From an uncultured Opitutaceae bacterium (lineage in GTDB: Bacteria > Verrucomicrobiota > Verrucomicrobiia > Opitutales > Opitutaceae), in the NCBI GenBank assembly GCA_903891325.1, contig CAITEC010000065.1, positions 1 to 49,824 of the forward strand: a stretch of DNA of 49,824 bases, read 5' to 3'. The notes beneath the pieces were generated by a model. The model saw nothing but the letters and a program-made list of their open reading frames with translations, searched no databases and was not told the origin of the DNA. The position numbers and the translations under genes are program-made. Within the stretch, counting starts at the first letter, position 1, and each line of letters opens with the position of its first letter. Positions 27,936 through 49,824 of this stretch are shown piece by piece.

Positions 27936-28700
27936 TTAATTCGCCGACTCCGGAAACGACACCTCGGCGCGGACGCCGGCCTTGATCGAGGCGTCGGTAT
28001 TTTCGACGATGATCTTGACCCGCATCAGGCCGGAGGCGGCGTCCACCCGGGGGTCGACGAAGTCAACGGTGCCGGAATAGACACGGTTCGCGTCGAGGAC
28101 GGGGACGCGGACGAGCATCGGGGCGTGGAGATGGATCAGGGGGAGTTCCTCGGCCTTGATGTAGAACTGCACATAGACCTTGCTGATGTCCACGATCCGG
28201 AAGAGCGGCTCGGCGGGCGAGACGGTCTCGCCGACCTCGCGCATCTTCTCAACCACGATCCCGGCGATCGGGGCGGTGATCGTGCGCTGGCGGAAGGTCT
28301 CCTCGGCCATCTGGGCGACGAGGCGGGCGCCCTCGACCTCGCTGCGGTTCTTCAGGGCCTCGTCCTCGCTGATGACCTTCTGGGCGTAGAGGCTCTTCGA
28401 GCTGCGGGCGTCGAACTCCTTCTTGTCGAGGTCGGCCTTGGCGCGGAGCATGTCCAGCTCCTCGAGGCGGGCGTAGAGGTGGGAGAGGAGCTGGCCGGCG
28501 ACGACGGGGTCGCCCTCCTTGACGGCGATCGAGACGATCGTCGTCTGGACGGGGGAACTCACGACGACGTTCTCAAAGGGCAGGACCAGGCCGTCGAAGG
28601 TGCGACCGGTCGCCGTGTCGGCGCGGAGCGCCGGGGCGGCGGACAGGCCCGCGAGGGCCAGGAAGAGAACGAGGCGGCGGAGGGCGGGGATCGGGGGCAT
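27936..28700 (-). CDS. HlyD/RND-type periplasmic adaptor protein
   Basis: A 254-residue adaptor with signal peptide (RRLVLFLALAGLSAAPALRA). It has a lipoyl-like half (VSSPVQTTIVSIAVKEGDPV), a short coiled coil (EELDMLRAKADLDKKEFDAR), the second lipoyl half (ITAPIAGIVVEKMREVGETV) and a beta-barrel domain (VYVQFYIKAEELP). Such proteins bridge inner-membrane pumps to TolC-type channels. It follows the TolC-like gene with a 2-nt gap, so the two are co-transcribed. It is the distal gene of the left arm of the export locus. Confidence 0.85.
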   Translation of the reverse strand: MPPIPALRRLVLFLALAGLSAAPALRADTATGRTFDGLVLPFENVVVSSPVQTTIVSIAVKEGDPVVAGQLLSHLYARLEELDMLRAKADLDKKEFDARSSKSLYAQKVISEDEALKNRSEVEGARLVAQMAEETFRQRTITAPIAGIVVEKMREVGETVSPAEPLFRIVDISKVYVQFYIKAEELPLIHLHAPMLVRVPVLDANRVYSGTVDFVDPRVDAASGLMRVKIIVENTDASIKAGVRAEVSFPESAN

Positions 28701-28702
28701 GG

Positions 28703-30427
28703 TCAGTTAAGTTTCACTTCGACGTGTTCCTTCTCGGGAAGGGTGCCGACAAGGACGTAGAGCTGAACGAGGGCCTTGTTCAGGTCAACATAGGTTCCCT
28801 GCTCGCGGGAGAGGGCCTGGCTCAGGTCCTTCTGGGACAGGGACACGTTGTAGCTGGTGGTGAGGCCCGATTCCAGGCGGCGCTCCTCGGAGTCGAGGGC
28901 CTGCTGTGCGAGGACGACCGAGGCGTGGACGAGGTTGATCCGGTCCTGGGCGGTCTCGATGTCGCGCATTGCGGTGTCGAAGGCGGCCAGGAGCTCGTTC
29001 TCGCTGCGCTTCACGTTGAGCAGGGCCTGGGCCTTGCGGATCTTCGCCTCGGCGAGCCGGGCGTGGTCCGCGCGGCCGGTCAGCGGAATCGTGACGACCA
29101 CGCCGGCGGTGTAGTCGGCGCCGGGGCGCTGGCGGTAGTCGGTGAAGGACTGCGACCAGCTCCCCTGCAGCCCGTTCCAGTCGATCGACCCCTTCAGGTC
29201 CACGCTCGGATAGATCTGGTTCTTGGCGTAGGCCAGGCGGACGTCCGTCTCCTTGATCAGCTCGAGGTTGGAGAGGTAGGAGGGATTGTTCTCGAACATG
29301 TCGAGCAGGAGCACGCCGCGGGAGAGGGCCGGGGCCTGGTGGACCAGGTCGGCGCCGTCCACATACCAGTTGTCGTCGAGCGAGGACGTGTACTCGGCCT
29401 TTGTGAGCTCGCGCAGGGTGTTGCGGCGGTGGGAGAGGAAGTTCTTGGCGAGCGCGAGCTCCTCCTGGGCCTCGGAGAGGCGCTCCTGGGCGTCGGTGAC
29501 GTCGATCGGGGCCATCTTGCCCTGGTCGAGCCGGCGCTGGTTCTCGTCAACCAGGTGCATGGCCAGGTCGACCGCCTGCTGCTTGACCTTCAGGTTCTCC
29601 TGGCCGAAGACCATCTCGAAGTAGGCGGCCATCACGTCGGCGATCGTCTTGATGACGGCGGTCCGGTAGTCCTGCTTGGACTTCGCAAAGGCGGTCTGGT
29701 TCAGGTGGACCTCCGCGAGGGTGGCGTCGAAGCCGAAGTTCTTGAGCAGGGCCTGGGTGACCTCCAGCTTGCTCATCGTCGTGTATTCGGGGTGGAAGAT
29801 CGAGGAGGACTCCTCGTTGAAGGTGTTGTCGGCCCGCTCGGCGGTCGTGGCGATCTGCCACTGGGTGCCGGTGGGGAGGATGCCCGAGAAGCCGGCCTCG
29901 TAGTGGAGGATGTCCTCGTGGTAGGAATAGGAGAGCTGGCCGGTGGAAAGGAACTGGACCGCGTTCTGGGGGTGCTCGTCGTGGGTCTTCAGGAAGTCGA
30001 AGTTGAAGTTCGGGTCGAAGGCGCCCAGGGCCTCCGTGACCCGCAGCTTGGCGAAGGCGGGATCGAGCCGGTCGGACTTCAGCTCAAGGTTCGAGTTGAG
30101 CGCCGCAACGATCAGGTCGAGGAGCTGGGTCGGCATCTTCGATGATTCGTCGCCCTCATGGACGGCAAAGAGGGGTCCGGGAGCCTCCGGCTTGTACTTG
30201 CGACGATGGGCCTTTTCGGGGGCGAGGACCTTGGCGGCAACCTTTTCACCGACGACGATTGCCTTGTCGTTGGCCTTTTGTGCAGGTGTCTCAACTACAG
30301 TTATTTGGACATTAACTGATGTGGGCTGTACCTGGTCGCTCGAGCCGGAAACGGGCGCGCAAAAAGCGAGGGATGGCGTTAGAAACACAAGCGCTCGGAG
30401 GGAGCGTTGGCATTTGGTCAAACTCAT
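28703..30427 (-). CDS. TolC-family outer-membrane protein
   Basis: A 574-residue outer-membrane efflux protein with signal peptide (RSLRALVFLTPSLAFC). Two long helical halves are typical of TolC: LDLIVAALNSNLELKSDRLD opens the first; ALSEAQ-like stretches (DAQERLSEAQEELALAKNFL) and LAEAKIRKAQALLNVKRSEN follow. It would form the outer-membrane duct. ATG 30427 was chosen over TTG 30439. Residues 30-80 form a linker longer than usual. It sits between the permease and adaptor genes in one minus-strand series. Confidence 0.85.
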   Translation of the reverse strand: MSLTKCQRSLRALVFLTPSLAFCAPVSGSSDQVQPTSVNVQITVVETPAQKANDKAIVVGEKVAAKVLAPEKAHRRKYKPEAPGPLFAVHEGDESSKMPTQLLDLIVAALNSNLELKSDRLDPAFAKLRVTEALGAFDPNFNFDFLKTHDEHPQNAVQFLSTGQLSYSYHEDILHYEAGFSGILPTGTQWQIATTAERADNTFNEESSSIFHPEYTTMSKLEVTQALLKNFGFDATLAEVHLNQTAFAKSKQDYRTAVIKTIADVMAAYFEMVFGQENLKVKQQAVDLAMHLVDENQRRLDQGKMAPIDVTDAQERLSEAQEELALAKNFLSHRRNTLRELTKAEYTSSLDDNWYVDGADLVHQAPALSRGVLLLDMFENNPSYLSNLELIKETDVRLAYAKNQIYPSVDLKGSIDWNGLQGSWSQSFTDYRQRPGADYTAGVVVTIPLTGRADHARLAEAKIRKAQALLNVKRSENELLAAFDTAMRDIETAQDRINLVHASVVLAQQALDSEERRLESGLTTSYNVSLSQKDLSQALSREQGTYVDLNKALVQLYVLVGTLPEKEHVEVKLN

Positions 30428-30458
30428 GGTGCTGTTCAAGAAAAGTGGGTCTGGAGCG

Positions 30459-31607
30459 TCAGGGAAGGACTACCCCCACCTGGCGCCGCAGGGATCGAGC
30501 AAGCGGCGTAAGGCTGAGAAGGACACCAGTATTTATGGCGCATGCAAGCCAAAGCAGCGGCTGGCCGCCGGAGGGCAAATCGGCCGATTGGGCCGCCCCG
30601 GCAAGTTCGAGGATGATACGGGCGGCAAAGCGGCTGGCCGCGAGCGCGGCAAGGAGGGCGGTGTTGGCGAGGATGAGGTTCTCGGCCAGGGAAAAACTCC
30701 AGAGGGTCGCCCCGGAAATGCCGAGGCTTCGCAGGAGCGCCTGGGTGTAGCGGGTCTGCTTTTCCTCGAGCATCCCGATGCTGCCGAAGGCGAGGACCAC
30801 GCAGAGGCAGAGGATGAGGGCCATGCCCGTGCGCCAGCGATTCTGGGTTCGGGTGAACGCATCGAGCGCCGCCCGGTAGGGGGAGGGGTCGCGAAGCGCG
30901 GGTGCTGCGACTCCTTCCGTCGCAAAAAGCCTGCGGACGGCGCGGACGGTGTCACCGGCCGCGGCTGCCGAGGCGGGGTCGAAGAGGACGACGTCGAGGC
31001 GGCCGGTCGCATCGGAGCCGCCGGCGGAGGCAGCCGGCAGGACGACCAGGTCATCCAGACCCAGCGCCTCGACGTTCCCGTTCGGGGCGGAGGTCACCGC
31101 GGTGAAGGGCAGTCCACCCCGCGTCAGCCGGACAGTGCGGCCCTCCGGAAGGGTCCGGGTGAGCCAGACCGCCTCCGCGGCAGGGGCCAAGCCTCGCATG
31201 GCGCCGCTCGCAGCACTATAAGAGGCATGACCCGTCTTGCCGAAGGGAGCGACGAAGACGGGCATGGGCTCGCCCCAGGGGGTGTAGGCCGGATCGGGGA
31301 GCTGCTGCATGAGCAGCAGGTCGCCGTGGGCGGCCAGTGGGGCGGCCCAGTGATCGGGGGGGAGGGAGCCGGTCTCGGGGAGGGGACTGTTGGCCGGGGC
31401 CTGCATTACTATAGTGTCCAGTCCCAGCCGCCGGAGTTCCGCGCGGCGGGCATTTTCTGCGGCGGCGAACCCCAGGAGAAGGACGCCGGCCGCCGCCGAG
31501 AGGGAGAAGGTCAGGAACCAGCGGGCCAGCGGGCTGGCGGGCTGGGAGCGCCAACGAATGGCGAGCTCGCGGGACTGATAGCGGGCTATGGCGGTTGCGG
31601 CTTTCAT
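30459..31607 (-). CDS. FtsX/MacB-like ABC permease
   Basis: A 382-residue permease. One membrane helix near the N-terminus (WFLTFSLSAAAGVLLLGFAA) is followed by a periplasmic domain of about 220 residues. Three C-terminal helices follow (MALILCLCVVLAFGSIGML, WSFSLAENLILANTALLAAL, PLLWLACAINTGVLLSLTPL). This 1+3 layout with the core MLEEKQTRYTQALLRSLGIS is that of FtsX/MacB-type ABC proteins, which work by mechanotransmission with a TolC duct. Its ATPase is at 31886, separated by repeats. The start ATG 31607 has no ribosome-binding site. Confidence 0.75.
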   Translation of the reverse strand: MKAATAIARYQSRELAIRWRSQPASPLARWFLTFSLSAAAGVLLLGFAAAENARRAELRRLGLDTIVMQAPANSPLPETGSLPPDHWAAPLAAHGDLLLMQQLPDPAYTPWGEPMPVFVAPFGKTGHASYSAASGAMRGLAPAAEAVWLTRTLPEGRTVRLTRGGLPFTAVTSAPNGNVEALGLDDLVVLPAASAGGSDATGRLDVVLFDPASAAAAGDTVRAVRRLFATEGVAAPALRDPSPYRAALDAFTRTQNRWRTGMALILCLCVVLAFGSIGMLEEKQTRYTQALLRSLGISGATLWSFSLAENLILANTALLAALAASRFAARIILELAGAAQSADLPSGGQPLLWLACAINTGVLLSLTPLARSLRRQVGVVLP

Positions 31608-31625
31608 GGGCAGAGATTGGTTTCT

Positions 31626-31856: not shown

Positions 31857-31885
31857 ATCCTGAAGTCGAACTGCAGAAGCGCTCT

Positions 31886-32524
31886 TCATTTGATCTCCAC
31901 GAGAATGCTGTGCGGCGACACCGGGGCCAGCGTCTCGGCCAACCTGGGGTCGTGAGTCGATATGACCGCGGATTTTCCGGAATTTATCCACTCGCTCACG
32001 ACGGAGGCGATCAATCCTGTCGAAATATCATCCAACCCGGACGTCGGCTCGTCGAGCAGCAGGACTTCCGGATCCTTGGCAAGGGCCCGGGCCAGCGCGG
32101 CCCGCTGGACCTGGCCGCCTGAAAGCTTCTCGGCGGGGGAATTGGCCAGGGCTCCGATTCCCAGCCGGTCCAGCCAGTGGGTGATCGCGGTGGCGAGCGG
32201 TCCAGGCTCTATCCCGGCGATCAGGCCGGCCAGCTCAAGGTTGCGCCGGACGGTCGCAGCGGGGAGCAGGTTGAACTGCTGGAAGACAAAGCCGGTCTCG
32301 CGGCGCTTGAAGTCCCGGTCCGGCGGCCGGCCGTGACGGGTGTGGACTCGGCCGGACTGCGGGGTCAGGTAGCCGGCGAGAAGCTTCAGGAGCGTGCTCT
32401 TTCCCCCTCCGGAAACGCCGCGGACGAGCGTCAGGCCCGCGGTAATCTCGGAGCTGAATCCCTCGAAGACCGGCGTCGAGGCCGGGCTATAGCGAAAACT
32501 CAGGTCGGCCAGGCTAAAGAGCAT
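31886..32524 (-). CDS. ABC transporter ATP-binding protein (LolD/MacB type)
   Basis: A 212-residue ATPase with Walker A GVSGGGKST, Q-loop FVFQQFNLLPA, signature LSGGQVQRAALARALA, Walker B VLLLDEPTSGLD and switch His in STHD. The ATP-hydrolysis residues are all present. It pairs with the FtsX-like permease at 30459. ATG 32524 was chosen because the frame upstream encodes repeat DNA only. Confidence 0.9.
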   Translation of the reverse strand: MLFSLADLSFRYSPASTPVFEGFSSEITAGLTLVRGVSGGGKSTLLKLLAGYLTPQSGRVHTRHGRPPDRDFKRRETGFVFQQFNLLPAATVRRNLELAGLIAGIEPGPLATAITHWLDRLGIGALANSPAEKLSGGQVQRAALARALAKDPEVLLLDEPTSGLDDISTGLIASVVSEWINSGKSAVISTHDPRLAETLAPVSPHSILVEIK

Positions 32525-32563
32525 GAGGGCGGGGTTTGGAATTCTTGCAGAGGGGCTGTTTGA

Positions 32564-32692
32564 GGGTGGAGCGGGACCTCCGGGCACGCTGGTTTGGGAC
32601 TATCGTCGCTCAGCGCGCTCGGAGATCGCGCTCCACCTCGGGCGTGTTTGAAGGTTTTGGGGATAGCTTACAGGTCTCAGGTTTCTGCAAGT
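32564..32692. repeat. Family A palindrome and family C remnant
   Basis: 32564-32639 is a family A palindrome. 32670-32692 carries CAGGTCTCAGGTTTCTGCAA followed by a decayed TTGC-box-like stretch with no gene behind it. Confidence 0.75.
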
Positions 32693-32703
32693 GCCGCTGG
32701 CCC

Positions 32704-34035
32704 TCACTTTGGGACGATCGCCACGGCCGCGCGACCTTCGGCCAGAAGCCTCGATCCCGGGAAAAGCCGTTGAAGCCCCTGCTGCCAGCCGGCGGCGAGG
32801 ACGCCGTTCTCGTCCCATTCCGCGAGCGCGAGCTTCGGGACGATCCGGGCCGGCTCAGGGAGCCGCACGAAGACAAGCGCGGACAGTTCCACGCCGGAAA
32901 GGCTCGCGCGCTCGGAAGCGGTCTTGGGCGGGGCCTTGCCCGCCTCGGGGAGCCGCACGAAGACAAGCGCGGGCTTTTCCGCATCGGACAGGTTGCTGTG
33001 CTCGGCCTCGAAGGCCCCGGGGGGCAGCCGGAAGCGGATCACGGGCGACACCCCTGCGCCGGACGGGGCCACTCCCCAGGAATTGAAGGTCGCCGTCGCC
33101 TCCTCGCCTCCCGCGGTTGCCACCGTGCAGGAGAGATCCTCGGCGGGCGCCTCGTGAAGAAGGGGCAGGGTCGCGCGGACCACGACCTCGAGGGCCGTGT
33201 CATCCTCGACGGTCGCGAGTACCTCGCCGGCCTCGACCCGGGTTCCGTCCGCATCGGGGGAAACGGCCAGCCGGAGGGTGCCGGGGATCGGGGCGGAAAC
33301 GGGGTGACTGGCGAGCCGCTCGTCAAGGCCGCGCTTCCGGTCATCGACGGCGGCGGCCAGCGCCTGGATATCGGCGGGCTCGGCCTGGGGGTCGAGGGCG
33401 GCAACCTGCTTGCGGCGCTCGAGGAGCGCGTTTAGCCGGGCCTCCGCCTGGGCCGCCGTCGAGGCGGGTTTCAACCGGGGATCGAGGACGGGCGTGTCGC
33501 CCTGAAAGAGGTCCGGGGAGCGCTCGGCAAAGCGGGCCACCGAGAGGGCCTCCCGCGCCGCCTCGATATCGCTGTCGAGCTTGCCCAGGTCCGCGGCCAG
33601 GTCGTACCGGCGGTAGCGCGCGCGGCGATCGGCGAGTTCCTGCCGATCGCGGTCGATTTGCCGGGCCGCCTCGGGGGTGGGCTCCGGGTCAATTGAGGCC
33701 CACACGGTTGCGGCCGCCATCGGGCCGGGCTGGTGGGCGGCGGGGAGGATGTGGAGGATCCCTGAAACCGGCGCCCGGACGGTCTCGGCGCGGACGGGAA
33801 CGATGGACGCGGGTAGCTGGGCGACGAGCAGTTGGGACGAGAGCGGAAAAGTCGACCAGTCCCAGGCGCGCGAGGGGGGCGGGGTGGGTTGATCCGAACG
33901 GGTGCAGCCAAATAGGGAAATAACTGCTGCGGCTAAGACTACGGCGTACGCTGGTTTGGGACTGCGTCGCTCAGCGCGCTCGGAGATCGCGCTCCACCTC
34001 GGATTGGCTTGGGGGTAAGTTTCAGGGCCTTGCAT
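32704..34035 (-). CDS. HlyD-like lipoprotein adaptor with repeat-derived N-terminus
   Basis: An adaptor of about 443 residues. The signal is VVLAAAVISLFGC (lipobox SLFGC), followed by SSQLLVAQLPASIVPVRAET, a coiled coil (about 120-260) and a barrel domain. No start codon lies between the repeat and the signal peptide, so translation must start in repeat DNA: ATG 34035, or TTG 34062 one nt after the preceding stop. The residues WSAISERAERRS come from a half family A element. A 30-codon tandem duplication (90-bp offset, near 32861 and 32951) repeats ALVFVRLPE. It would connect to the TolC-like protein upstream. Confidence 0.7.
   Translation of the reverse strand: MQGPETYPQANPRWSAISERAERRSPKPAYAVVLAAAVISLFGCTRSDQPTPPPSRAWDWSTFPLSSQLLVAQLPASIVPVRAETVRAPVSGILHILPAAHQPGPMAAATVWASIDPEPTPEAARQIDRDRQELADRRARYRRYDLAADLGKLDSDIEAAREALSVARFAERSPDLFQGDTPVLDPRLKPASTAAQAEARLNALLERRKQVAALDPQAEPADIQALAAAVDDRKRGLDERLASHPVSAPIPGTLRLAVSPDADGTRVEAGEVLATVEDDTALEVVVRATLPLLHEAPAEDLSCTVATAGGEEATATFNSWGVAPSGAGVSPVIRFRLPPGAFEAEHSNLSDAEKPALVFVRLPEAGKAPPKTASERASLSGVELSALVFVRLPEPARIVPKLALAEWDENGVLAAGWQQGLQRLFPGSRLLAEGRAAVAIVPK
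33946..34000. repeat. Half family A element inside coding DNA
   Basis: The right half only: GCTGGTTTGGGACTGCGTCG through GATCGCGCTCCACCTC. It is translated on the minus strand as part of the adaptor's n-region. Confidence 0.75.
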
Positions 34036-34063
34036 GCGCGGCGTCAGGTTTCGGAAGGGCAAA

Positions 34064-35354
34064 CTAGCTACCTGATTGGCCCCCGTTGCGCCACAGCGAA
34101 TCGTCGAAAAACCAAAGGGTCAGGCTCCACTCCCGCCGGTCTGCCAGCAGGGACTCCCGGGCCTCGGAGAGGGCGGGGCGGAGGGCGGCGTCGGAGGAGG
34201 CCAGGGCTTGGTCGACGCTTTCGATCCGGCCGTCGGTCTTTGCGAGGCCGTCCAGGGCCTGGCGGAGCTTGGCGGCGGCGGCCGCAGCCTCCTGCTCCAG
34301 GACTTCCCGGCGCACGACGGTCTCCTCGGCCAGCAGGCGCCGGTCGCTGGCGTGCTTCCCCTGGGTATCCAGGGTCCAATAAGTACCCACGGAGAGGAAG
34401 ACCTGCCGGGGCGACCAGGCATAGGTGTTCCCGTTGCCGGCCTCGTACACGGTCGGGCTGCTCACCGACATCTCGATTTCCGGCCACTCCTGGATCGTTA
34501 TCCCGAGCCGCCGGGCGCGGAGGGCAAGCAGATCGAGGGCGGCCATTCGCACCGTCAGGTGGGCCAGGTCCTCGGGCCGGGGACGGGCCGAGGCGACGGA
34601 ATAGGGAAGGGGGGGGGAGACCCTCGCTGGAAATGACCAGGGGAACCCCGGGCATCCCGAGAATCTCCCCGGTGCGGGTCAGCCAGTCGTCGCGGATCCG
34701 CGCCAGGTCGGATCGCTCCATTGACAGTTCACCCCGCTTTGCGGCAGCCGTATCCGGCGCCTCCGCGGCGAGGGTGGCGATCGCGGCCTGCCGGCGGGAG
34801 AGGAGGTCGGCGCGGGCGTCGAGATCCCGGCCCGCAAGGGCGGCCCGGTAGAGGGCGATCACCTGCTGGCGCCAGACGGTCTCCCTGACAAGCCGGGCAT
34901 GGGCAAGCGTCAGGACGGCAGCCTCGTAGCGCACCTTGAAGGTGAAAAATCCCGGGACGTCGAAAAAGAGGGATGCGGCGAAGGTGAAGGGCTCGAAGCC
35001 GGCGTACTGGCTGCTGAAAAAGTGCTCGTAGGCGGCCGAGAAGTTCGCGGTGGGGATCAGCGAGCGCTTCACCTGGTCCAGGGCCTCGGCGGCCCGGGAG
35101 ACGTCCAGGTCCGCGGAAAGCACCTTGTTGTTGTGCGTTTTCAGCCGCTCAAGGGCGGTCTTCCAATCGAGGGTGACCGGGGCCGGATCATGGCCGGGAG
35201 CCACGAGGGCCTTCCATTCGGCCTGCCGCGTATCCTGTTCCCGCGAAAGCTCCTTCTCGGCGGAGTTACACCCCGACCCCGCTCCCACCAGCCCCAACAG
35301 CACTACCGCTCCGTGCAGCCATGCCTTTGCGCGATTGCCGCACGCGAACGTCAT
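34064..35354 (-). pseudogene. TolC-family outer-membrane lipoprotein, frameshifted at a C9 run
   Basis: About 429 codons. The N-terminus is a lipoprotein signal ending GAGSGC; the first helical half runs LDWKTALERLKTHNNKVLSA to DLARIRDDWLTRTGEIL. At 34609-34617 (nine G on +, nine C on the coding strand) the frame breaks. The second half (MAALDLLALRARRLGITIQE ... WSLTLWFFDDSLW) continues in another frame, and removing one C restores one protein. It could be a sequencing error, a phase-variable tract or true inactivation. It overlaps the upstream lipoprotein gene by ATGA, and its stop is next to the HlyD-like gene. Confidence 0.75.
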
Positions 35355-35770
35355 TGCATAGTGAATGTACCGCTGGCGGCGACCTGGTTGACGAACGTTC
35401 CACCGGTGCCCGAGGTAAAGGTAAGCGTGTCCGTGATGGCCGGCACGAAGGCCGAGACGATGTTAACCGTGGCCTGGTTCGTGTTCGAGCTGGAGACCTG
35501 GTAAGTGTAGGTGCCGCTGTCGCCGCTGGGCGAGGTGTAGGTGCCAGTCGCAAACACGTAGGTCGTCGTGAACTGGCTCTGGTTGGGGTCGACGAAGTTG
35601 AGGGTGTGGCCCGCGAGCGAAGTGGGTGCGAGTTGGGACGGGAGCCCGTACACGGCGCCGCCAGAATTGCCGCCGCAGCCGCCGAGGAGTAAGCCGCACA
35701 GGGGAAGCAGGGCCAGGATCATCGCGGCCCAGGACGAGAAACGAAGGCGGTGGGTAGGGGTAGCGTTCAT
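35351..35770 (-). CDS. Small lipoprotein, first gene of the left export arm
   Basis: A 139-residue lipoprotein with signal FSSWAAMILALLPLCGLLLG, lipobox LLGGC, then a Gly-rich start and a beta-rich domain (TLNFVDPNQSQFTTTYVF, TGTYTSPSGDSGTYTYQVSS). No family was recognised. ATG 35770 was chosen because upstream residues fall in the divergent promoter region. It overlaps the TolC-like gene by ATGA, so it belongs to the export operon. Confidence 0.65.
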   Translation of the reverse strand: MNATPTHRLRFSSWAAMILALLPLCGLLLGGCGGNSGGAVYGLPSQLAPTSLAGHTLNFVDPNQSQFTTTYVFATGTYTSPSGDSGTYTYQVSSSNTNQATVNIVSAFVPAITDTLTFTSGTGGTFVNQVAASGTFTMQ

Positions 35771-35853
35771 TAAATTAAGGCTGTTGGTCAAAATAGATAG
35801 GTGTTTGACATTGATAATGTAAAGGATGAACGAAAAGATCGTCCTCTTTAAAT
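35771..35853. promoter_or_regulatory. Divergent promoter region of the export locus
   Basis: 83 bp, AT-rich, between the minus-strand lipoprotein gene and the plus-strand GAF-HlyD gene. On + there are TTGACA (35805) and TTGATAAT (35811-35818); ATG 35826 lies 7 nt after the latter and opens a 31-codon frame (NEKIVLFKYEF...) that overlaps the GAF gene. On - an AT-rich CTATCTATTTT could act as -10. The promoters are predicted only. Confidence 0.4.
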
Positions 35854-40010: not shown

Positions 40011-40025
40011 AGAAATTATTGATAC

Positions 40026-42017
40026 ATGAGCACGCCAATGTCGGAAGTCCGCAGGACGGAGCTCCGGCGGCCAGACAAGCTGCCGGAGGGGCTCGATGCG
40101 CTCGTTCACCGGGGTCACGGCGCCTGGCGGAGCCGCAAGTCCGAATACGAGAAACTCTGGGACAAGGCCGGCTTCATCGAGGCCGTGGCCAAGGAAATGC
40201 AGGATCTGCCCCCCCATGAGCTCGATGTTAAGCTCCGGGAGGCCCGCGACACGGTCCTGCGCCGCGGCCGGCGGAACCGGGACGTCTTTGCCGAGGTTCT
40301 TCCCCTGATTGTCGAGACGGCCCGGCGCGAACTGGGAATGACCCCCTACCGGGTCCAAATCCTCGGGGCCTTGGCCCTTCTGAACGGTTATTTGGGCGAA
40401 ATGGCCACGGGGGAGGGGAAAACCCTCACGATCGCCCTGGCGGCCGCCGCCTACGGCTGGACCGGGCTGCCCTGCCACGTGATCACGGCCAACGATTACC
40501 TCGCCGAGCGCGATGCCACCGGCCTGCGCGGGTTTTACAAGGCCTGTGGGCTGCGTTCAGCCCATATTGCAGGCCCCATGGATGCGGCAGAGCGGCGGTC
40601 GTCCTACCTGGCCGAGGTCGTTTACACGACCAGCAAGGAGCTGGTCGCTGATTTTCTCCGGGACCGGCTCCAGATGGGGGTCCTGGCCGAGCCGGGCCGC
40701 CGGATGGTCGCCCGTTTCCTGCGCCCCCGGGCGCCCGCGCTTCCCCTCGTCCAGCGGGGCCTGCACACGGTGATCGTCGACGAGGCGGACAATCAGATGA
40801 TCGACGAGGCCGTGACCCCGCTCATCATCAGCCGTCCCCAGGAGAACCAGACGATGATCGCTGCCTCCCAGCACGCCGACAAGCTGGCGGCGACCCTCCT
40901 GGTGGGCGAGGACTACGACCTGGATTACACCTACAAGGACGTCCATCTCCTCCCCGGCGGCCGTTCGAAGATCTCCGCCTGGTGCTCGGCCTACCAGATC
41001 GGGCTTTATTCCCAGCCGGCTTGGATGTCGACCCTCGTCCTCCAGGCCCTGCACGCCCGGCACTTTTTCCTCAGGGACAAGCAGTACGTCATCATGGACG
41101 GGCAGGTCGTGATCGTCGATGAATTCACGGGACGACTCATGCCGGGCCGCTCGTGGCGGCTGGGCCTCCACCAGGCAGTCGAGGCCAAGGAGGGAATCAC
41201 GATCTCCCAGCCGGCTGAGAACCTCGCGCAGTTGAGTTTCCAGCGCTTTTTCCGGGTCTGCACCCGGCTTTCCGGGATTACCGGGACGGCCAAGGAGGCC
41301 TCGAGCGAGTTCTGGTCCATTTACGAGCTTCCCCTGCTGACCGTACCCCCCCACCGGCCCTGCATCCGTGAGGTCTGGCCGACCCGGTATTTTCCGGACG
41401 CCACCTCGAAGTGGGCGGCGATTGTCGAGCAGATCGAGGCCCTCCATGCCAAGGGCCGCCCCATCATGGTGGGCACCCGCAGCGTGTCCTCCAGCGAGCA
41501 CCTGGGACGGCTCCTGACCGCCCGGAACCTGTCCTTTACGATCCTCAACGCCATCCGGAACCGGGAGGAGGCGGCCATTGTGCGGCTGGCGGGGGAGAAA
41601 AACGCGATAACGATCGCCACGAACATGGCCGGCCGCGGCACCGATATCCGGCTCGCGGCGGGGGTTGCCCGGGCGGGCGGGCTGCATGTCATCCTGACAG
41701 AATTGCACGAGTCGGGACGCATCGACCGGCAGCTTCAAGGGCGCGCCGCGCGGCAAGGCGACCCGGGCAGCACCTGCACCTTTGTCTCCATCCAGGACGA
41801 GCTGCCGGAGCGGTTTCTGCCGCGCGTCGTGCGCCGGCTGATTGAAACCGCGATCCGGAGGGACGTGCGGGGCGCAAACTGGGCCGCGCGCAAGGCGCTT
41901 TCCTACGCCCAGCGCCGCGCCGAACGCTTCGCATTTCGGCAGCGCCGCGGGGTCATGGCCTACGACCGGATTCTCGCCGAAAACCTTCTCGCCGGCAAGG
42001 CAATCGACCAGATCTAG
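40026..42017 (+). CDS. Short SecA-like translocase ATPase (accessory SecA)
   Basis: A 663-residue DEAD-motor protein of the SecA family. It has Walker A MATGEGKT (126-133), VITANDYLAERDATG, DEAD box VDEADNQ (from 252), EFTGRLMPGRSWRLGLHQAV, RLSGITGTAKEAS and motif VI region ATNMAGRGTDIRLA, all as in SecA. It ends shortly after the helical scaffold start and lacks most of the wing and scaffold and the Cys-rich C-terminal zinc tail. Housekeeping SecA has about 850-900 residues. Its place directly before a giant exported protein argues for a dedicated accessory SecA. Confidence 0.85.
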   Translation: MSTPMSEVRRTELRRPDKLPEGLDALVHRGHGAWRSRKSEYEKLWDKAGFIEAVAKEMQDLPPHELDVKLREARDTVLRRGRRNRDVFAEVLPLIVETARRELGMTPYRVQILGALALLNGYLGEMATGEGKTLTIALAAAAYGWTGLPCHVITANDYLAERDATGLRGFYKACGLRSAHIAGPMDAAERRSSYLAEVVYTTSKELVADFLRDRLQMGVLAEPGRRMVARFLRPRAPALPLVQRGLHTVIVDEADNQMIDEAVTPLIISRPQENQTMIAASQHADKLAATLLVGEDYDLDYTYKDVHLLPGGRSKISAWCSAYQIGLYSQPAWMSTLVLQALHARHFFLRDKQYVIMDGQVVIVDEFTGRLMPGRSWRLGLHQAVEAKEGITISQPAENLAQLSFQRFFRVCTRLSGITGTAKEASSEFWSIYELPLLTVPPHRPCIREVWPTRYFPDATSKWAAIVEQIEALHAKGRPIMVGTRSVSSSEHLGRLLTARNLSFTILNAIRNREEAAIVRLAGEKNAITIATNMAGRGTDIRLAAGVARAGGLHVILTELHESGRIDRQLQGRAARQGDPGSTCTFVSIQDELPERFLPRVVRRLIETAIRRDVRGANWAARKALSYAQRRAERFAFRQRRGVMAYDRILAENLLAGKAIDQI

Positions 42018-42081: not shown

Positions 42082-42131
42082 TTAAAAAATGATTCTTGTA
42101 AATTCTTAACAGACCCTTTGTCTCACCCCCG

Positions 42132-45100
42132 CTGAAGACCACACGGCAACGGGCAATCGCCCGCGCAACTACGTTCGCCATAGAGCACTTGGAGAATCGC
42201 GTACTTCTGTCCGCGGCTCCGGTGGTCCTGCCTGTGGCGTCCTCGGCCGCGAACTACAACGGTACGGTTCAGGCGGTGGCGGTTGCAGCGGGGGTTACCG
42301 TGTCCAGCGCGACTCCGGTCCAGTCGGCTTCCGTCGCGATCAGCGCCGGGTATCAGCAGGGTCAGGATGCCCTTAAAATCGCCGGCCAGGCCGGCTCCTC
42401 CGGCACCCTTTCCGACGGCCTTTCCTGGGACTTTAACGCCCAGTCCGGGACCCTGGTTTTGAGCGGTTCGGCAAGCGCCGCGACCTACCAAAACGACCTC
42501 GCTTCGGTGGTCTACGACAACACGAATGTGGACGCCGGCCAAGCGGCAACGAACGGTTCCCGGCAGGTCACAATCGAGGCTGGAAACGCCGCTGGCGAAT
42601 CCGCTGCGGCGGCCGCTTCGGTTGCCGTAAACGTCGCGATTGCGGCCCCCTCGGTGGCCAATTCCCAGGCCTCGACGACCTTCGACGGGAGCTCAAATTC
42701 GGCCGCAGTTGGGGCCGGAATTACGGTCGCAAGCGACGGGAATCTGTCCTCGGCTTCTGTGGCGATTTCATCGGGCTACCAGCAGGGCGAGGACGTCCTG
42801 ACGATCGCCGGGCAGACCGGAATCAACGGTACCTTGTCCGACGGACTGAGCTGGCAGTTCAATGGCACGACTGGCACCCTGACCCTTTCGGGCACAGGCA
42901 GTGCGGCAACGTATCAGACTGATCTTCAGCAAGTTAATTTCGAGGATTCCCTCTACCTTGCCAACGCTCCCCCGACCAACGGCATCCGTGGTTTGACAGT
43001 TTCAGCGACAAATTCCGGCGGTTCCTCCACCTCCGGCCAGTCCTCGCTGAGTGTCAATGTCAGCTTGGTTCAGTACGTGAATAGCCAGGGAGGGACGACA
43101 ATTTACGCGACAAATCCGGCCAGCCAGGTGGTGATCGGCGCGACCGGGAGCGGGGGATCCTCATCCGCGGTTTTCCTCAGCCCGACAGATCTTGCCAACC
43201 TCGGCGCGGGCACGGTCAACATCGGCGTCACGACCACCGCCAACCAGCTGGTCATCGGCGGCGCCGGAACCGGCACCGTAACCCTCCCCGGTTCGACGAC
43301 CATCCTAACCGGAAACAAGATTTACTTTGATTCGTCCGAAACGAGCAATGGCAACCTCGTCATCAATGGTTCGGGCGATACCACCTATTTTAATGCCCAG
43401 ACCCTGACCAACGGCACCATTGCGCTTGGCGACTCCTTCGAGGTTAACGGAGACTCGACCCTCACAGCCACGACCGGATCACTGTCCCTTTCCTCCCCCG
43501 GCACGGTGGATAGCTACTACGATGGCCTCGACGGCGCCCAGGCCAGCGCCGCTCCCTACAGCCTCGGACTCACCTCGACCAATCAGGCTGTCACGGTCTC
43601 CGGAACGGTCGGCGCCCACTCGCCGCTGAACAACCTGACGGTCAGCGCTGGAACGACCGTCAATTTCGGCAACCAGGTCTTTCTGGCCGGCAACCTCTCC
43701 GTCACCGGGAGCACAGCGGTCGCCAACCAGACCATCACCTTCAACGGATTGGTCAACGTGACCGGCAATGTCACGATCAACGCAAACGGCGGAAACGTGA
43801 ACTTCAGCGGCGGGTTGATCGTCGGCGGCTACCTTTACATCCACAATGCCGGCACGGTGACCTTCTCGGGTGGCAATGTGCAGGTTGCCGGCGCCGCGAC
43901 CGTCCCGGGGACCGGCCAGGCGATCACGATCGGCAATGCCGGGACCCTGACCAACGTAACGAACATCAATTTTACCGGCACCTCGCCGCTCGATTACACC
44001 GGAACCGCCGGTATCTACTCAAATGCGGGAACCACCTTCGGCGGTGCGATTGGGCTGAACAACGCCTACATCCCCACGGGTCTTAACCTGATATCGGCCG
44101 GCCCGATCCAATTTAGCTCCGGCGCCCAGGTCCTCCTCGGCACCTCACCGCTCTCCATTGAAGGAGCCACCAACGTCGGCTTTGCCAACGGTTTCACCGC
44201 CGGCTCCATCGTCCTCCACGGGATCACGGGCAACCTGACCGTATCCGCCCAAGCCACGGCCGCCAGCCTGGATGTCACCGCCCAGACATCCACAAACTTC
44301 GCCGGCATTCAAATTGGGGCGGGTGGCGCCATCATCACCTCAGACCAGCTCACGCTAACCGGCGGAACCGACTCGGTCACACCCACCGCAGGCGCAGTGC
44401 CCCTCGTCATTCAACCTTATACGATCTCCCGCCCGATTCTGGTCGGTTCGCCGGGTATCAGCGGCTCGGGCAAGCTCTACGTCACGGACACCGACCTCAG
44501 CGCGATCGACGTCGGCTTCAGCAAGGTCACGATCGGCGCCCTCAATGGAACGGGCACGGTCTCGGTTGGCGGCATCAGCGAGAGCCTCGGAACAATTCAG
44601 GACTCGACAGAGATCGTCGGCGGCACGATTAACGTAACGGCCCCCGTTCAGATTGAGCCGACCTCCGGTTACCTCCAGCTCGTTTCGGCCACCGGGTCCG
44701 GTGGAATCAATATTCAGGCCGGAACCGGAATCAACACGGTGCCTGGCGACCAAAACACCTGGGTCTGGCTGCAATCCGCATCGAGCATCGTCATCGACTC
44801 CCCGATTGAGGCGACCGACACGATTTCCATTGTTGCCGGTTACGGCACGGGGGTGGGATCGGTGACCATCGACGATACCGGCGCCAATAGCGGATCCCTG
44901 ACAACCCTTGGCAGCGCGACCATCACCGCCGTAACCCCGGTTGCGCCATCCTCGCCCTACAGCCTGGAACCGGACAACCGGATCGAAATCATCGCCGGTT
45001 CGAGCAACGGCACGATTACCGTCAATGCACCCAGCGCGACCACTCCGATGATAACCGTCGGCGGCGGCGCGACCAGCTCGGCCGTCCTGAGCGCCACGGG

Positions 45101-48100
45101 CTCGACAGGCGGAACAATCACCCAGGGAGGCCTCCTCGCCGCTTCAAATCTGGCGGTTACTGCCTATGGGAACGTCAATCTCAACACCAACGTTTCGAAG
45201 ATCGCCTCCGAGACAATCAACGGGGTGGTCCTGACGGGTGGGTCTGCTGCATCGTATACGGCGGTTCTAACTGGTACAGCCGTCGCGTCGTTCACGCAAG
45301 TCGGCGCAGGGAGCGCCTATTCAACGGCCCCCACTGTGACAATCGAGGGCGGGGGCGGTTCCGGCGCCACGGGAACGGCAGTCATTTCCGGCTCGGTTTC
45401 GGGTTACACCATCACCAATCCGGGTTCCGGCTACACAAGCACCCCTTCGGTCACATTCAGCGGAAACGCCCTGGGGACCGCGGTGCTCTCCGGCGGGGTC
45501 AGCTGGATTGACGTTACCAGCGGAGGCGCCGGCTACACGAGCACCCCGACGGTTTCATTCAGCAGCGGATCGGCTGCGGGTTCGGCCACGGTGATAAACG
45601 GTGTTGTCGTTGGGGTGACGGTGACCAACGAGGGGAGCGGCTACACGAGCGCGCCGACTGTGACCCTCAATGGCGGCGGATACACGTCGCAGGCGACGGC
45701 AACCGCGCGAATGAACTACATTCTCAGTGGTATTACGATAACCAATCCTGGCAGCGGCTATACGGCCGACCCCTCAGTCACAATATCCGGGGGCAATCCG
45801 CTGGTTGCTGCCACGGCAACGGCCACCATCTCCGCAACCGTCACGGGCATCAACATTGGCGCGGGCGGTTCGGGATACCTGATCGCACCGACGGTGATCA
45901 TTGGAAACGGCAATTCCGGATCCTCCACGGTTACAGCGGCCGGCGACGGCTACACCACCGTCAATGGCATCGTAATGGTTGGCAGCGGTTCGGTGATCAT
46001 AACCCAGGCCGCCGCGATCACCGTCAATGCGGTCACTACGATTGGAAACGACCCCGCAACGCCGGGCAATTTCTCCCTCACAACCGCGGCAGCCAGCGCC
46101 GGCGGGATCGCACTGGGCCAGATCAACATCATTTCCGGCAATGTCACGCTGAGCGCCGACGGCGCTATCACGAACAACGTCAGCACGAGCAACATCAACG
46201 TGGTAACCTTCGGTGAACTGACCGCAACGGCCAACACGGGGATCGGCACCTCAGCACTGCCAATCGAGACGGCCATCGGCCAGGTCCAGGCCACCAACAA
46301 CACCAGTGGAAGCATCTTCATCACCGACACCGACGGACTCTATGTAACCGGAACGGGCCTCCAGACGGCGGCCGGCAATGGAAATATCGTGGTTGTTGTG
46401 AGTGACGGCAACCTTGACGTGGGAGCCGCCGTAAGCGCCAACGGATCCGGAAACATCCTTCTCGAGGCAAACCAGGGCGCGCAGACCGGCGCGACCAACA
46501 ACGATTCCGATGTCCACGTCCTGGCAAACGTCACCACCGCCTCCGGGTACGTGACGGTCAGCGCCTATCGCAATGCGGACCTTTCCGGAAGCAAGGCAGT
46601 TACTGTCTCCGGGACCGGCGGAAACGTCTACGTCCTCGCCCAGACCGGTTCGATCGTCCAGGCCGCCGCGTTCAGCATCATCACCGATGCGGCGAACATC
46701 TACCTCAAGGCGGGCGTCAATGTCCTGCTGGGAATCCTCGACGCCCGGGTCAACGGCGACCGTCCCTCCTCGACCACCAATCAGGCCACCTGGGGGAATG
46801 TCGCCATCTATGCGGTCGCCGGCACCATCACCGATGCGCAGGCGAACAACACGACCGCCGTCGAAATCTACGCAGACACGCTCTGGCTGAAGGCGGGCAC
46901 CGGGATTGGCGCCGCCGCCCCCGATGTTCTCGCAGCAAACGCGAATCCGGTCGAAACCGAGATCATCACGCTGGCGGGAGCAACAACGACTTCAGGCGGG
47001 ATCAATATCCAAAACAACGAGGCGACCACCGTTGGCTCGCTCGCCCTTAATGCAACCTTCGTCTCCGCAGTGGGAATCAGCGGCGGCACGACCGGGGTTT
47101 CGGTGGCCGCGCTCTCAGGCCTGGTGACTTCGACAAACGGCGGCGTCATCCTCCAGGCCTCGGCCGGAACGATCACCATCAGCAATGTGATCACCGCGGC
47201 GGGATCGGGCAATATTCTCGTCAGCGCCCCGGGAACCAGCGCGAATGTCGCCGCGAATGCCAATGTCACTTCCGGCTCGGGCAACATCACGATCATTGCG
47301 GCCTACGACCTGACGCTCGGCGCGACGAACAAGATTGAAACCGTTGGCGGTGCGGTCGACCTGGAGGCAACCGCAGACGACGTCACCCTGAATGGGCCGA
47401 ACGTTGCGGGCGATGTGAAGAGCTCCGGTGGCAACATCCGAATTGTCGCCGGGGTGACGATCAACATCAACGACGAGGTCGATGCGGATGCGGGCGGCAA
47501 CATCGAGTTGAGCGCCGGAACCGGTTCGATCATTTACGGCGGCAACATCGGAATCTACGCCTCCGCCCTCTGGACCAATGCCGGAGTCGGGGTCGGGAGT
47601 TCCTCAGCTCCCCTTTACAACGCCGAGACCGGCGCCAGCACCCTTACGGGTGTCGCAGGAAGCGGCGGGATCTACGTAACGACCGATGGCCCCGTCACGG
47701 TCGTGACCCACACCCCGATGACTTTCGGTGTCACGACGGTTAATACGAATGGGTCGACCTCGACCTATACGGTCCCGAGCCAGGCGGACCTCACGACAAG
47801 CGCGGCCGGCAACATCCAGCTCAAGACCACCGCCGGATCGATAACGATCAATGACGGCACGGCCGCCAATCTCCCTTCGGTCAGCGCCGACACAACCGGA
47901 ACCGTCACCCTGAACGCGGGCGGTGCAACCTCCGACGTCACGCTAAACGGCAATGTTCTTTCCGGGACCGGCGCCATCTCCATCACGGCCGGCCGGAGTG
48001 TCTTCCAGAACGAAAATATCACGACGGGTGGCACCGGGACCATCGGGGTCACCGCAACCGCCGGAGTGATCACGACAGCCTCCGGCGAGAGCACGACCTC

Positions 48101-49824
48101 GGGATCCGGAAACATCACTTACCAGGCAACCGCCGCCGGCCAGGACATCACCCTGGGCGGGACCCTTACCTCGACATCCGGCAGCATTTCGGTAACCGCG
48201 GGACGCAATGTTGCGCAAAACGGCGACATCACGACAGGCAGCACGGGAACAATCGGTGTGACAGCCAATGGCGGCGGAATTAACACCAATAGCGGCACGA
48301 CCACGTCAAGCGGTTCGGGAAGCATCACCTACTCCGCGACGACGGCGGGAAACAAAATCACGCTTAACGGCACAATCACCTCCACATCTGGCGCCATATC
48401 AGTGACCGCCGGAACCGATGTTGATCAAAACGGAAACATCTCAACTGGGAGTTCGGCCACGGTCGGGGTCACGGCCACTGCTGGCTCCATCAACATGGCT
48501 GGCGGCACCTCGACGACCAGCGGCAGCGGTGCGATCACGTATCAGGCGCACGTCAACGTGGCGCTGGCGCAACTCACCAGCACAAGCGGCCCGCTGAACG
48601 TCACGGCCTCCACGGGCAGCATCTCGAATTTCCCGGCCAACGGTTCAAACAACCTTAACACCACCGGTCTCGCGACGCTCAGCGCAGCAACCGGAATCGG
48701 CGGAACGGGAACCGCGCAGATCAATTCCTCGGTCGGCAGCCTGACCGCGAGCAATTCGACGTCCGGGCTGATTGTCATCAGCCAGACGGGTGCGATGACA
48801 ATTGTCGCTTCGAACGGCGTGACCAACAGCGGCAGCAACGGCGGGATCATCATAACGCAGACCGGCGGAACCCTCACGGTCAACGGAGTGGTGACTGCCG
48901 CCGGCTCAGGTCTCATCCTGCTCAACACCTCCGGTGCATCGAATAACATAACGACATCGGCGGAGGTTAGCTCAGCCTCCGGCTCCATCAGCATCCTCGC
49001 GGGCAGCGGAACGGTGACGATTGGTGGCGAGGTGGCGACGGCTGGTACCGGCACGATCGACCTCGAGGCGGGTACCGGCAACCTGACCATTAACGACAAT
49101 AATTCGGTTCAGACCGCCGGCGGAAACATCTATGTGCTGGCCCAGGGCTCTGCGGCGATCACCGGACTGAATGCGGGCGCGGGTTCGGTTTCGGTCAATG
49201 CGACTACCGGTTCAATCACGGACAATGGCGACACGCTGGTTGATGTCACCGCAGCCGCCGCCCGGTTCAGTGCTACCACGACGACCAACGGGATCGGCAC
49301 CAGCCTCCTCCCCATCCAACTCACCGTTGCCACGATCGCAGCCGCTGCGGGTTCGGGCGGAATCTACTTCAATGACAGCGAGAGCGTCACCGTCGGAACA
49401 GTCGCCGCGGTGAAGATCAAGCAAGTGGCCGCGAATGACACGACTTCGCTCGTTGGCGATGGTGCCTCCCTGAGCGGGCTGGTTGCGAGCGGGGCAGGTC
49501 CGGTCAAGCTGACAACCAGTTCGGGCGACATCACAATTACGCAGGCGGTCAGCAGCGGCACCGGTCCGATCACGTTCAATGCAAATGGCTCGGTCTACCA
49601 GCAGGCCAACATCACGACAGGCGGCACAGGCGCCGTTTCGGTGACAGCGACGACGGGATCCATCACGACCAGTGTCGGCACCACGACCACCAGCGGCTCC
49701 GGGGCGATCACCTATCAGGCCGCCACGAATGTCCAGTTGGCGACGCTCACCAGCACGAGCGGCGCGCTGAACGTCACGGCGACCAGCGGGACGATCACGA
49801 ACAACCTGGCCCCGGCAGCCACGG
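42132..49824 (+). CDS. Giant LEPR-XLL-type surface protein, 3' end outside window
   Basis: At least 2564 codons, open to the window end. The N-terminus (KTTRQRAIARATTFAIEHLENRVLLSA, given here only as a start: KTTRQRAIAR) holds the LEPR-XLL-like motif HLENRVLLSA of giant planctomycete and verrucomicrobial proteins. Two cadherin-type repeats follow (GYQQGQDALKIAG and GYQQGEDVLTIAG), then a long beta-helix (haemagglutinin-like) with a GSGYTSxPTV block. There is no ATG: the frame opens after TAA 42099, and CTG 42132 is the best start; ATT 42102 and TTG 42189 are alternatives. It is the likely substrate of the export genes upstream. Confidence 0.8.
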   Translation, partial: MKTTRQRAIARATTFAIEHLENRVLLSAAPVVLPVASSAANYNGTVQAVAVAAGVTVSSATPVQSASVAISAGYQQGQDALKIAGQAGSSGTLSDGLSWDFNAQSGTLVLSGSASAATYQNDLASVVYDNTNVDAGQAATNGSRQVTIEAGNAAGESAAAAASVAVNVAIAAPSVANSQASTTFDGSSNSAAVGAGITVASDGNLSSASVAISSGYQQGEDVLTIAGQTGINGTLSDGLSWQFNGTTGTLTLSGTGSAATYQTDLQQVNFEDSLYLANAPPTNGIRGLTVSATNSGGSSTSGQSSLSVNVSLVQYVNSQGGTTIYATNPASQVVIGATGSGGSSSAVFLSPTDLANLGAGTVNIGVTTTANQLVIGGAGTGTVTLPGSTTILTGNKIYFDSSETSNGNLVINGSGDTTYFNAQTLTNGTIALGDSFEVNGDSTLTATTGSLSLSSPGTVDSYYDGLDGAQASAAPYSLGLTSTNQAVTVSGTVGAHSPLNNLTVSAGTTVNFGNQVFLAGNLSVTGSTAVANQTITFNGLVNVTGNVTINANGGNVNFSGGLIVGGYLYIHNAGTVTFSGGNVQVAGAATVPGTGQAITIGNAGTLTNVTNINFTGTSPLDYTGTAGIYSNAGTTFGGAIGLNNAYIPTGLNLISAGPIQFSSGAQVLLGTSPLSIEGATNVGFANGFTAGSIVLHGITGNLTVSAQATAASLDVTAQTSTNFAGIQIGAGGAIITSDQLTLTGGTDSVTPTAGAVPLVIQPYTISRPILVGSPGISGSGKLYVTDTDLSAIDVGFSKVTIGALNGTGTVSVGGISESLGTIQDSTEIVGGTINVTAPVQIEPTSGYLQLVSATGSGGINIQAGTGINTVPGDQNTWVWLQSASSIVIDSPIEATDTISIVAGYGTGVGSVTIDDTGANSGSLTTLGSATITAVTPVAPSSPYSLEPDNRIEIIAGSSNGTITVNAPSATTPMITVGGGATSSAVLSATGSTGGTITQGGLLAASNLAVTAYGNVNLNTNVSKIASETINGVVLTGGSAASYTAVLTGTAVASFTQVGAGSAYSTAPTVTIEGGGGSGATGTAVISGSVSGYTITNPGSGYTSTPSVTFSGNALGTAVLSGGVSWIDVTSGGAGYTSTPTVSFSSGSAAGSATVINGVVVGVTVTNEGSGYTSAPTVTLNGGGYTSQATATARMNYILSGITITNPGSGYTADPSVTISGGNPLVAATATATISATVTGINIGAGGSGYLIAPTVIIGNGNSGSSTVTAAGDGYTTVNGIVMVGSGSVIITQAAAITVNAVTTIGNDPATPGNFSLTTAAASAGGIALGQINIISGNVTLSADGAITNNVSTSNINVVTFGELTATANTGIGTSALPIETAIGQVQATNNTSGSIFITDTDGLYVTGTGLQTAAGNGNIVVVVSDGNLDVGAAVSANGSGNILLEANQGAQTGATNNDSDVHVLANVTTASGYVTVSAYRNADLSGSKAVTVSGTGGNVYVLAQTGSIVQAAAFSIITDAANIYLKAGVNVLLGILDARVNGDRPSSTTNQATWGNVAIYAVAGTITDAQANNTTAVEIYADTLWLKAGTGIGAAAPDVLAANANPVETEIITLAGATTTSGGINIQNNEATTVGSLALNATFVSAVGISGGTTGVSVAALSGLVTSTNGGVILQASAGTITISNVITAAGSGNILVSAPGTSANVAANANVTSGSGNITIIAAYDLTLGATNKIETVGGAVDLEATADDVTLNGPNVAGDVKSSGGNIRIVAGVTININDEVDADAGGNIELSAGTGSIIYGGNIGIYASALWTNAGVGVGSSSAPLYNAETGASTLTGVAGSGGIYVTTDGPVTVVTHTPMTFGVTTVNTNGSTSTYTVPSQADLTTSAAGNIQLKTTAGSITINDGTAANLPSVSADTTGTVTLNAGGATSDVTLNGNVLSGTGAISITAGRSVFQNENITTGGTGTIGVTATAGVITTASGESTTSGSGNITYQATAAGQDITLGGTLTSTSGSISVTAGRNVAQNGDITTGSTGTIGVTANGGGINTNSGTTTSSGSGSITYSATTAGNKITLNGTITSTSGAISVTAGTDVDQNGNISTGSSATVGVTATAGSINMAGGTSTTSGSGAITYQAHVNVALAQLTSTSGPLNVTASTGSISNFPANGSNNLNTTGLATLSAATGIGGTGTAQINSSVGSLTASNSTSGLIVISQTGAMTIVASNGVTNSGSNGGIIITQTGGTLTVNGVVTAAGSGLILLNTSGASNNITTSAEVSSASGSISILAGSGTVTIGGEVATAGTGTIDLEAGTGNLTINDNNSVQTAGGNIYVLAQGSAAITGLNAGAGSVSVNATTGSITDNGDTLVDVTAAAARFSATTTTNGIGTSLLPIQLTVATIAAAAGSGGIYFNDSESVTVGTVAAVKIKQVAANDTTSLVGDGASLSGLVASGAGPVKLTTSSGDITITQAVSSGTGPITFNANGSVYQQANITTGGTGAVSVTATTGSITTSVGTTTTSGSGAITYQAATNVQLATLTSTSGALNVTATSGTITNNLAPAAT
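45297..45960 (+). repeat. GSGYTSxPTVT tandem repeats in the giant protein
   Basis: About six units of 30-40 residues, each with a core like NPGSGYTSTPSVTFSG, GGAGYTSTPTVSFSS or NEGSGYTSAPTVTLNG, separated by Ala/Thr/Val strands. They interrupt the longer beta-helix repeats on either side. Confidence 0.75.

Follow-up and report, generated by a model that had tools for sequence, protein, structure and literature searches.

What is a locus for that places a short SecA and an M50 protease fused to an HlyD adaptor beside the start of a giant protein? The question is raised by contig C65 of an uncultured Opitutaceae bacterium (genome of 3.29 Mb in 140 contigs), which was analysed over its entire length of 49,824 bp and is referred to here as the window. 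Eleven frames diverge from ~35.8 kb, as described in a first-pass annotation of this DNA. Five of them encode a TolC-family duct, a small periplasmic adaptor, a GAF-HlyD protein, an RRE/PqqD-like M50-HlyD fusion and a short SecA, and are referred to as the core; next to the SecA gene begins a giant frame with an N-terminal LEPR-XLL motif. We consider it likely, judging from the sequences, that the five-gene core is a dedicated exporter of LEPR-XLL proteins. The gene identities, the gene order GAF-HlyD–M50-HlyD–SecA conserved in different phyla, the intact ATPase and zinc-protease residues and the co-occurrence of tag and machine are direct observations.

Conservation of the core

Genes for TolC, the small adaptor, GAF-HlyD, M50-HlyD and the short SecA were found clustered in six loci of one family, namely in the window, in G033, G028 and G031, and twice in G032. 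Scanning genome contigs with an alignment of six M50-HlyD sequences yielded at least 583 relatives, of which the best 80 were kept as related loci. By their titles these 80 are mostly metagenome bins, and they span Verrucomicrobia, Planctomycetes groups, Lentisphaerae, Elusimicrobia, Spirochaetales, Chlorobiaceae, Fibrobacter, Nitrospira, Desulfuromonas, Magnetococcales, Rokubacteria and alpha-, beta- and gammaproteobacteria; close relatives in named records belong to Opitutae/Verrucomicrobia. Wherever the contig was long enough, the gene directly upstream of M50-HlyD was GAF-HlyD in 66 of 70 loci and the gene directly downstream was a short SecA in 63 of 67 (644–840 codons, stop to stop). Because the order is kept to this extent, the grouping is more than chance. 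M50-HlyD was absent from all twelve congeners (G001–G012) apart from one weak, HlyD-only match in G009, and the locus was therefore either gained here or is easily lost.

Co-occurrence of the core with LEPR-XLL proteins

A check for joint occurrence of the short SecA, the M50-HlyD and GAF-HlyD genes with LEPR-XLL proteins had been suggested by the first-pass annotation. Its outcome speaks strongly for a single system whose substrates are LEPR-XLL proteins. M50-HlyD proteins were classed by their best score against an alignment (A2), so that 'SecA-type' denotes a score class: at least 475 bits in the phylum of the window, at least 472 bits in the order of G456 (an Azonexus hydrophilus record, L114), where G628 was added in two fragments, and at least 840 bits in the family of G432 (a Chlorobiaceae bin, L076). 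Proteins scoring 372 bits or less were called diverged. Among 387 genomes of the window's phylum, 24 carry LEPR-XLL, 24 carry a SecA-type M50-HlyD and 22 carry both (p 1.8e-31); the corresponding numbers are 32, 32 and 28 in 300 genomes of the order of G456 (p 6e-31) and 7, 7 and 5 in 86 genomes of the family of G432 (p 1.2e-5), all by Fisher tests that ignore phylogeny and on samples that overlap slightly (G456, G432 and apparently G418/G433 are counted twice).

Within 57 near relatives, the window's own genome included, LEPR-XLL occurs in exactly the five genomes with a SecA-type core, plus one doubtful match in G056. No match to the LEPR-XLL model NF012209 was found in 14 control genomes. 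Fifty M50-HlyD genomes, chosen from the 80 and mostly outside Verrucomicrobiota, contained LEPR-XLL in 35 cases, with up to 13 genes each. A single M50-HlyD gene can accompany several LEPR genes (one and seven in G575, one and five in G530), which fits the expectation for a general tag. Around the 80 related loci (flanks of up to 10 kb) a regular-expression search picked up LEPR proteins in 17, compared with 0 of 80 when frames were read backwards.

LEPR-XLL without a SecA-type M50-HlyD was seen in eight genomes. Six of these (G263, G568, G713, G724, G799, G803) carry a diverged M50-HlyD instead, and the motif matches of the other two are doubtful, covering only model positions 7–18 in G056 and lying in a 23-codon frame in G569.

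Diverged relatives

Counted from the other side, most genomes with the diverged type lack an NF012209 match: one was obtained for 1 of the 58 such genomes in the window's phylum, for 3 of the 22 in G456's order and for both of those in G432's family. In G568, G713, G724, G799 and G803 the tag takes the variant form LEPRx(L/M)(F/L)D(A/G)A, and no short SecA was found within the stretches fetched. The loci of G019, G015, G035 and G024 (L042–L049) have a diverged M50-HlyD beside a TolC-like gene, with matches to the HlyD half of GAF-HlyD and to the small adaptor; an ABC ATPase, which we take to be Wzt-like, and proteins with an 'LExLExR(Q/T)LLA' N-terminus are also present, and there was no short SecA in the 30–38 kb fetched. 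This gene content suggests that the diverged loci are other flavours of the same idea, those of G019, G015, G035 and G024 possibly being an ABC-linked one.

The core might instead export something else, for example a peptide, and simply share a mobile region on which LEPR-XLL genes are often carried. M50-HlyD does match the protease models of daptide (165 of 300 bits) and epipeptide (36.2 of 225 bits) systems below their cut-offs, and the absence from the twelve congeners points to easy gain or loss. However, co-occurrence is tight in three samples and includes LEPR genes far from the core, and the motif variants track the M50 type. We regard this explanation as very unlikely.

The giant frame and its N-terminal tag

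Read from 42102, the giant frame scores 21.1 bits with NF012209 (cut-off 17) at residues 25–47, near its N-terminus; at 42174–42242 the model gave 25.6 bits. The listed TTG start (42189) lies downstream of 42102, and there is no ATG start ahead of the LEPR motif in this frame. The sequence contains no cysteine, is rich in T, G, A and S, and showed no Pfam domains in the part read from 42189. As the window is the whole contig, the giant is cut at its end rather than ended. The first-pass annotation had described a giant exported protein closing the right arm of the locus; the LEPR-XLL assignment passed its model, while the terminus was an effect of the contig boundary.

In 36 of 40 LEPR N-termini fetched, an R-, P- and S-rich stretch is followed by F-x-hydrophobic-E-A-L-E-P-R-hydrophobic-L-L-S-A-D. 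Of 35 sequences counted column by column, all have L+3, E+4 and R+6, and 32 have S+10; the regular expression used for finding them had fixed these positions in part. Up to just past the motif, the best 11-residue hydrophobicity is at most 1.73 in the 36 N-termini, showing no strong hydrophobic core, and 0.87 in the giant of the window. LEPR frames neighbouring the core have at least 2764 codons in G033, 18,984 (G032a) and 7,781 (G032b) in G032, at least 2064 in G028 and 4,931 in G031. At one of the G032 loci (G032:C1:3960220-4034998), LEPR-XLL giants stand in tandem after the core, the first of 18,984 codons and the second of at least 5,962 codons as read (6,574 in the genome search). A tie between LEPR-XLL and giants is already in print in the description of a Vibrio protein of ~8000 residues, given there with LEPR-XLL at the N-terminus and RTX domains at the C-terminus.

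The core proteins

The family assignments made at first pass (HlyD, TolC/OEP, ABC, GAF-HlyD, M50-HlyD and SecA) agree with Pfam and NCBIfam. In M50-HlyD the HExxH and NPLxxxDGY residues are invariant in 87 sequences, and these include the residues expected of a zinc protease: H211, E212, H215 and the third ligand D313. The predicted structure (pLDDT 89.7) has an HlyD-type fold at residues 448–713 and, at the N-terminus, strands followed by three helices. Of 52 N-termini aligned for this family, 34 match the PqqD profile at E ≤ 1, the best with 4.4e-9; among longer members, 4 of 10 match. GAF-HlyD has a hydrophobic segment at 344–369 and a weaker one at 101–121.

The short SecA (663 residues) retains both nucleotide-binding domains and the preprotein-binding domain, and its Walker A and DEAD motifs are invariant in 6 of 6 aligned proteins. 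Its match stops at profile positions 600–606 of 762–789 in five SecA/SecA2 models and at residue 605 of 780 against 2ibm, and the six aligned proteins share nearly the same end point. Missing are the wing (no SecA_SW among Pfam matches to E 0.1) and most of the helical scaffold domain, which holds the two-helix finger. A second, longer SecA is encoded elsewhere in the genome by a 1103-codon frame. No SecY turned up in the 23 frames of the window that were run against Pfam; a second SecY was not sought in the genome as a whole.

These features bear on a possible role of the core after export, in which LEPR-XLL proteins would cross the inner membrane in another way and M50-HlyD, GAF-HlyD and SecA would process, anchor or regulate them at the envelope. 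An M50 site intact in 87 sequences, a GAF domain and a SecA without wing and most of the scaffold could all be read in this way. Yet TolC and HlyD proteins build export conduits in well-studied systems, the ATPase residues of the short SecA are intact in all six aligned proteins, and the 36 LEPR N-termini offer no strong hydrophobic signal. A purely post-export function thus appears unlikely to us, and we retain export by the core as the preferred reading.

The ABC block and the layout of the window

Between TolC and GAF-HlyD the window has a block (30.5–35.8 kb) of FtsX-like permease, ABC ATPase, second adaptor, second TolC-like gene and lipoprotein. When its genes were run through tblastn (E ≤ 1e-3), with both pieces of the frame-broken TolC-like gene as separate queries, neither the 80 related loci nor 11 further stretches fetched from 10 genomes yielded a counterpart, two weak matches to the ABC ATPase aside. 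As the counterparts are lacking but for these two and the TolC-like gene is frame-broken, we treat the block as a passenger that probably lies outside the core. On the type I model TIGR03375 the ABC ATPase reaches 96.7 of 693.1 bits. In G033 the TolC frame (to 11374) lies ~0.4 kb from the GAF-HlyD frame (from 11750), with no ABC block between them.

The first-pass annotation had proposed a single composite secretion machine of all eleven genes, ABC pump and second duct included, and all of them do lie in two arms flanking one divergent gap. Against this stand the missing counterparts, the broken TolC frame and the short distance between TolC and GAF-HlyD in G033, so that we give the composite hardly any credence. 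What retains support is one secretion system of the core with LEPR-XLL substrates; the ABC pump, the second adaptor and the second duct are left unsupported as parts of it, and the gene for this duct also falls short of the OEP cut-off and changes frame part-way (Table 1).

Table 1. Genes of the divergent locus in the window, with the evidence for each assignment.
Feature	Position	Strand	Evidence
Small periplasmic adaptor (MFP/HlyD), core	27936..28700	-	TIGR01730 120.5 bits, cut-off 94.9
TolC-family outer-membrane duct, core	28703..30439	-	OEP 2.4e-37
FtsX-like permease, local ABC block, probably non-core	30459..31607	-	FtsX 19.2 bits, below cut-off of 25.5
ABC ATPase, local ABC block, probably non-core	31886..32587	-	ABC_tran 2.8e-28
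Second HlyD-like adaptor, ABC block, probably non-core	32704..34062	-	HlyD_3 21.5 bits, just below cut-off of 22.2
Second TolC-like gene, frame-broken	34068..35354	-	OEP 18.6 bits, below cut-off of 22; three-frame reading
Small predicted lipoprotein	35351..35773	-	Hydrophobic N-terminal stretch ending in LLLGGC
GAF-HlyD (GAF half, membrane segment, HlyD half), core	35854..37680	+	GAF 1.8e-7, HlyD_D23 1.6e-15
RRE/PqqD-like + M50 intramembrane protease + HlyD fusion, core	37688..39868	+	Peptidase_M50 29.8 bits, cut-off 27.2
Short SecA ATPase, core	40026..42017	+	SecA_DEAD 1.7e-81, P-loop_SecA 6.8e-49, SecA_PP_bind 2e-25
LEPR-XLL giant frame, predicted substrate	42102..49824	+	NF012209; 2574 residues, open to contig end; non-ATG start

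Elsewhere in the window, a PATR-repeat protein of 1659 residues (7720–12699) and a protein of 2199 residues (13034–19633) both have a signal-peptide-like start, and neither was picked up when the frames were scanned with a LEPR-like regular expression. Other genes encode a T2SSE-type ATPase (149–1753), a lipase maturation factor (22899–24479) and an O-antigen ligase-like protein (26270–27826). A palindrome resembling repetitive extragenic palindromic (REP) elements, with arms of ~29 nt, is found between genes at 27836–27914, 31621–31705, 32562–32640, 33937–34003 and 39923–40022, the last copy separating M50-HlyD from SecA. Allowing 2 mismatches at most, one arm pattern has 156 matches genome-wide (81 + 75), against none for the reversed control; several of the copies listed are no more than 70 bases away from the start of a contig.

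A proposed export route

According to the model we favour, recognition would take place in the cytosol, where the PqqD/RRE-like N-terminus of M50-HlyD would bind the leader of LEPR-XLL proteins (consensus FxxEALEPRxLLSAD). The short SecA would take the place of the type I ABC protein and thread the chain across the inner membrane, through a channel that could be either SecYEG or M50-HlyD itself. The conduit across the envelope would consist of TolC, the small adaptor and the two HlyD proteins of the inner membrane. Clipping or release of the leader is probably the task of the M50 site, and the GAF half of GAF-HlyD likely gates export.

A number of observations weigh against this model. The statistical association is subject to the limits of the Fisher tests given above, and could be inflated if linked genes are transferred together. 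SecA-type genomes without LEPR-XLL amount to 2 of 24 in the window's phylum (G138, G339), 4 of 32 in the order of G456 (G527, G589, G628, G656) and 2 of 7 in the family of G432 (G797, G857), and 15 of the 50 chosen M50-HlyD genomes have none; G138 is SecA-type by score, with no SecA seen on its 14.9-kb contig. TolC matches were obtained in just 26 and small-adaptor matches in 46 of the 80 related loci (flanks of up to 10 kb). Not every LEPR protein is giant, and some LEPR genes are distant from the core (~150 kb and more in G072). In the window's own giant the motif is followed by AAPVVLPV, and its first 45 residues, a span extending further beyond the motif, reach a hydrophobicity of 2.15, within the 2.0–2.7 of presumed signal peptides of the window. 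The PqqD domain assigned to M50-HlyD at first pass is matched in part of the family N-termini, but the Pfam profile has no match in the window's protein. Finally, the short SecA is without the parts that canonical SecA pushes with.

It seems to us an even call whether these loci constitute a distinct secretion system, namely one in which a wingless SecA drives export through a TolC conduit and an RRE on an M50-adaptor fusion reads the N-terminal LEPR-XLL leader, distributed over numerous Gram-negative phyla and serving proteins that rank among the largest known in bacteria. LEPR-XLL frames reach ~20,000 codons, and the model offers an exit route for bacterial proteins of thousands to ~20,000 residues. 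Under this model LEPR-XLL, so far an annotation label, becomes an export signal open to testing, and a SecA devoid of the parts normally used for pushing is predicted to operate together with a TolC conduit.

Comparison with known systems

The core shares with type I secretion (HlyB-HlyD-TolC) the HlyD adaptors, the TolC duct and large, repetitive substrates. It differs in having no HlyB-type ABC protein, the sole ABC ATPase of the locus lying in the non-conserved block a SecA-family ATPase occupying the conserved place and an M50 membrane protein being present instead, and in a conserved tag that is N-terminal. The C-terminal end of the giant, where a type I substrate would have its secretion signal, lies beyond the contig. 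With SecA2 accessory Sec systems it has in common a second SecA besides a longer one; in contrast to these, the SecA ends soon after the second nucleotide-binding domain and is linked to TolC and HlyD.

A PqqD-like domain, an M50 protease and a short N-terminal leader also characterise leader systems of ribosomally synthesized and post-translationally modified peptides such as daptide and the epipeptide system of EpeP, a protease thought to cleave and export its own peptide (PMC10885120). Here, by contrast, the putative substrates are large proteins and M50 is fused to HlyD.

The first-pass annotation knew of no system with such a set of genes. This has to be corrected, as Kamneva, Poudel and Ward (2015; PMC4452313) described a locus of secondary SecA, M50/HlyD, GAF/HlyD and HlyD genes, partly with OEP, giving it neither name nor substrate. 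In their proposal SecA is the ATPase and M50 the pore, the role being 'completely unknown', and SecA2 accessory Sec systems are named as well. The window displays the features they list, a secondary SecA_DEAD protein without SecA_SW and adjoining M50/HlyD, GAF/HlyD and HlyD/biotin-lipoyl genes, and the two descriptions agree in the occasional OEP and in phylum spread. No earlier link between the core and LEPR-XLL was found in the open-access literature, a scope with most subscription papers and bioRxiv preprints outside it, and the published passages that mention LEPR-XLL are silent on the SecA/M50-HlyD locus. Since the main text of PMC4452313 describes the core with neither 'giant' nor 'LEPR' among its words, the tag is an addition to a known orphan locus. 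To the description of 2015 the present analysis thus adds the LEPR-XLL link and the PqqD/RRE-like leader-reading domain, and with them a proposed substrate and address tag for this secretion-like locus.

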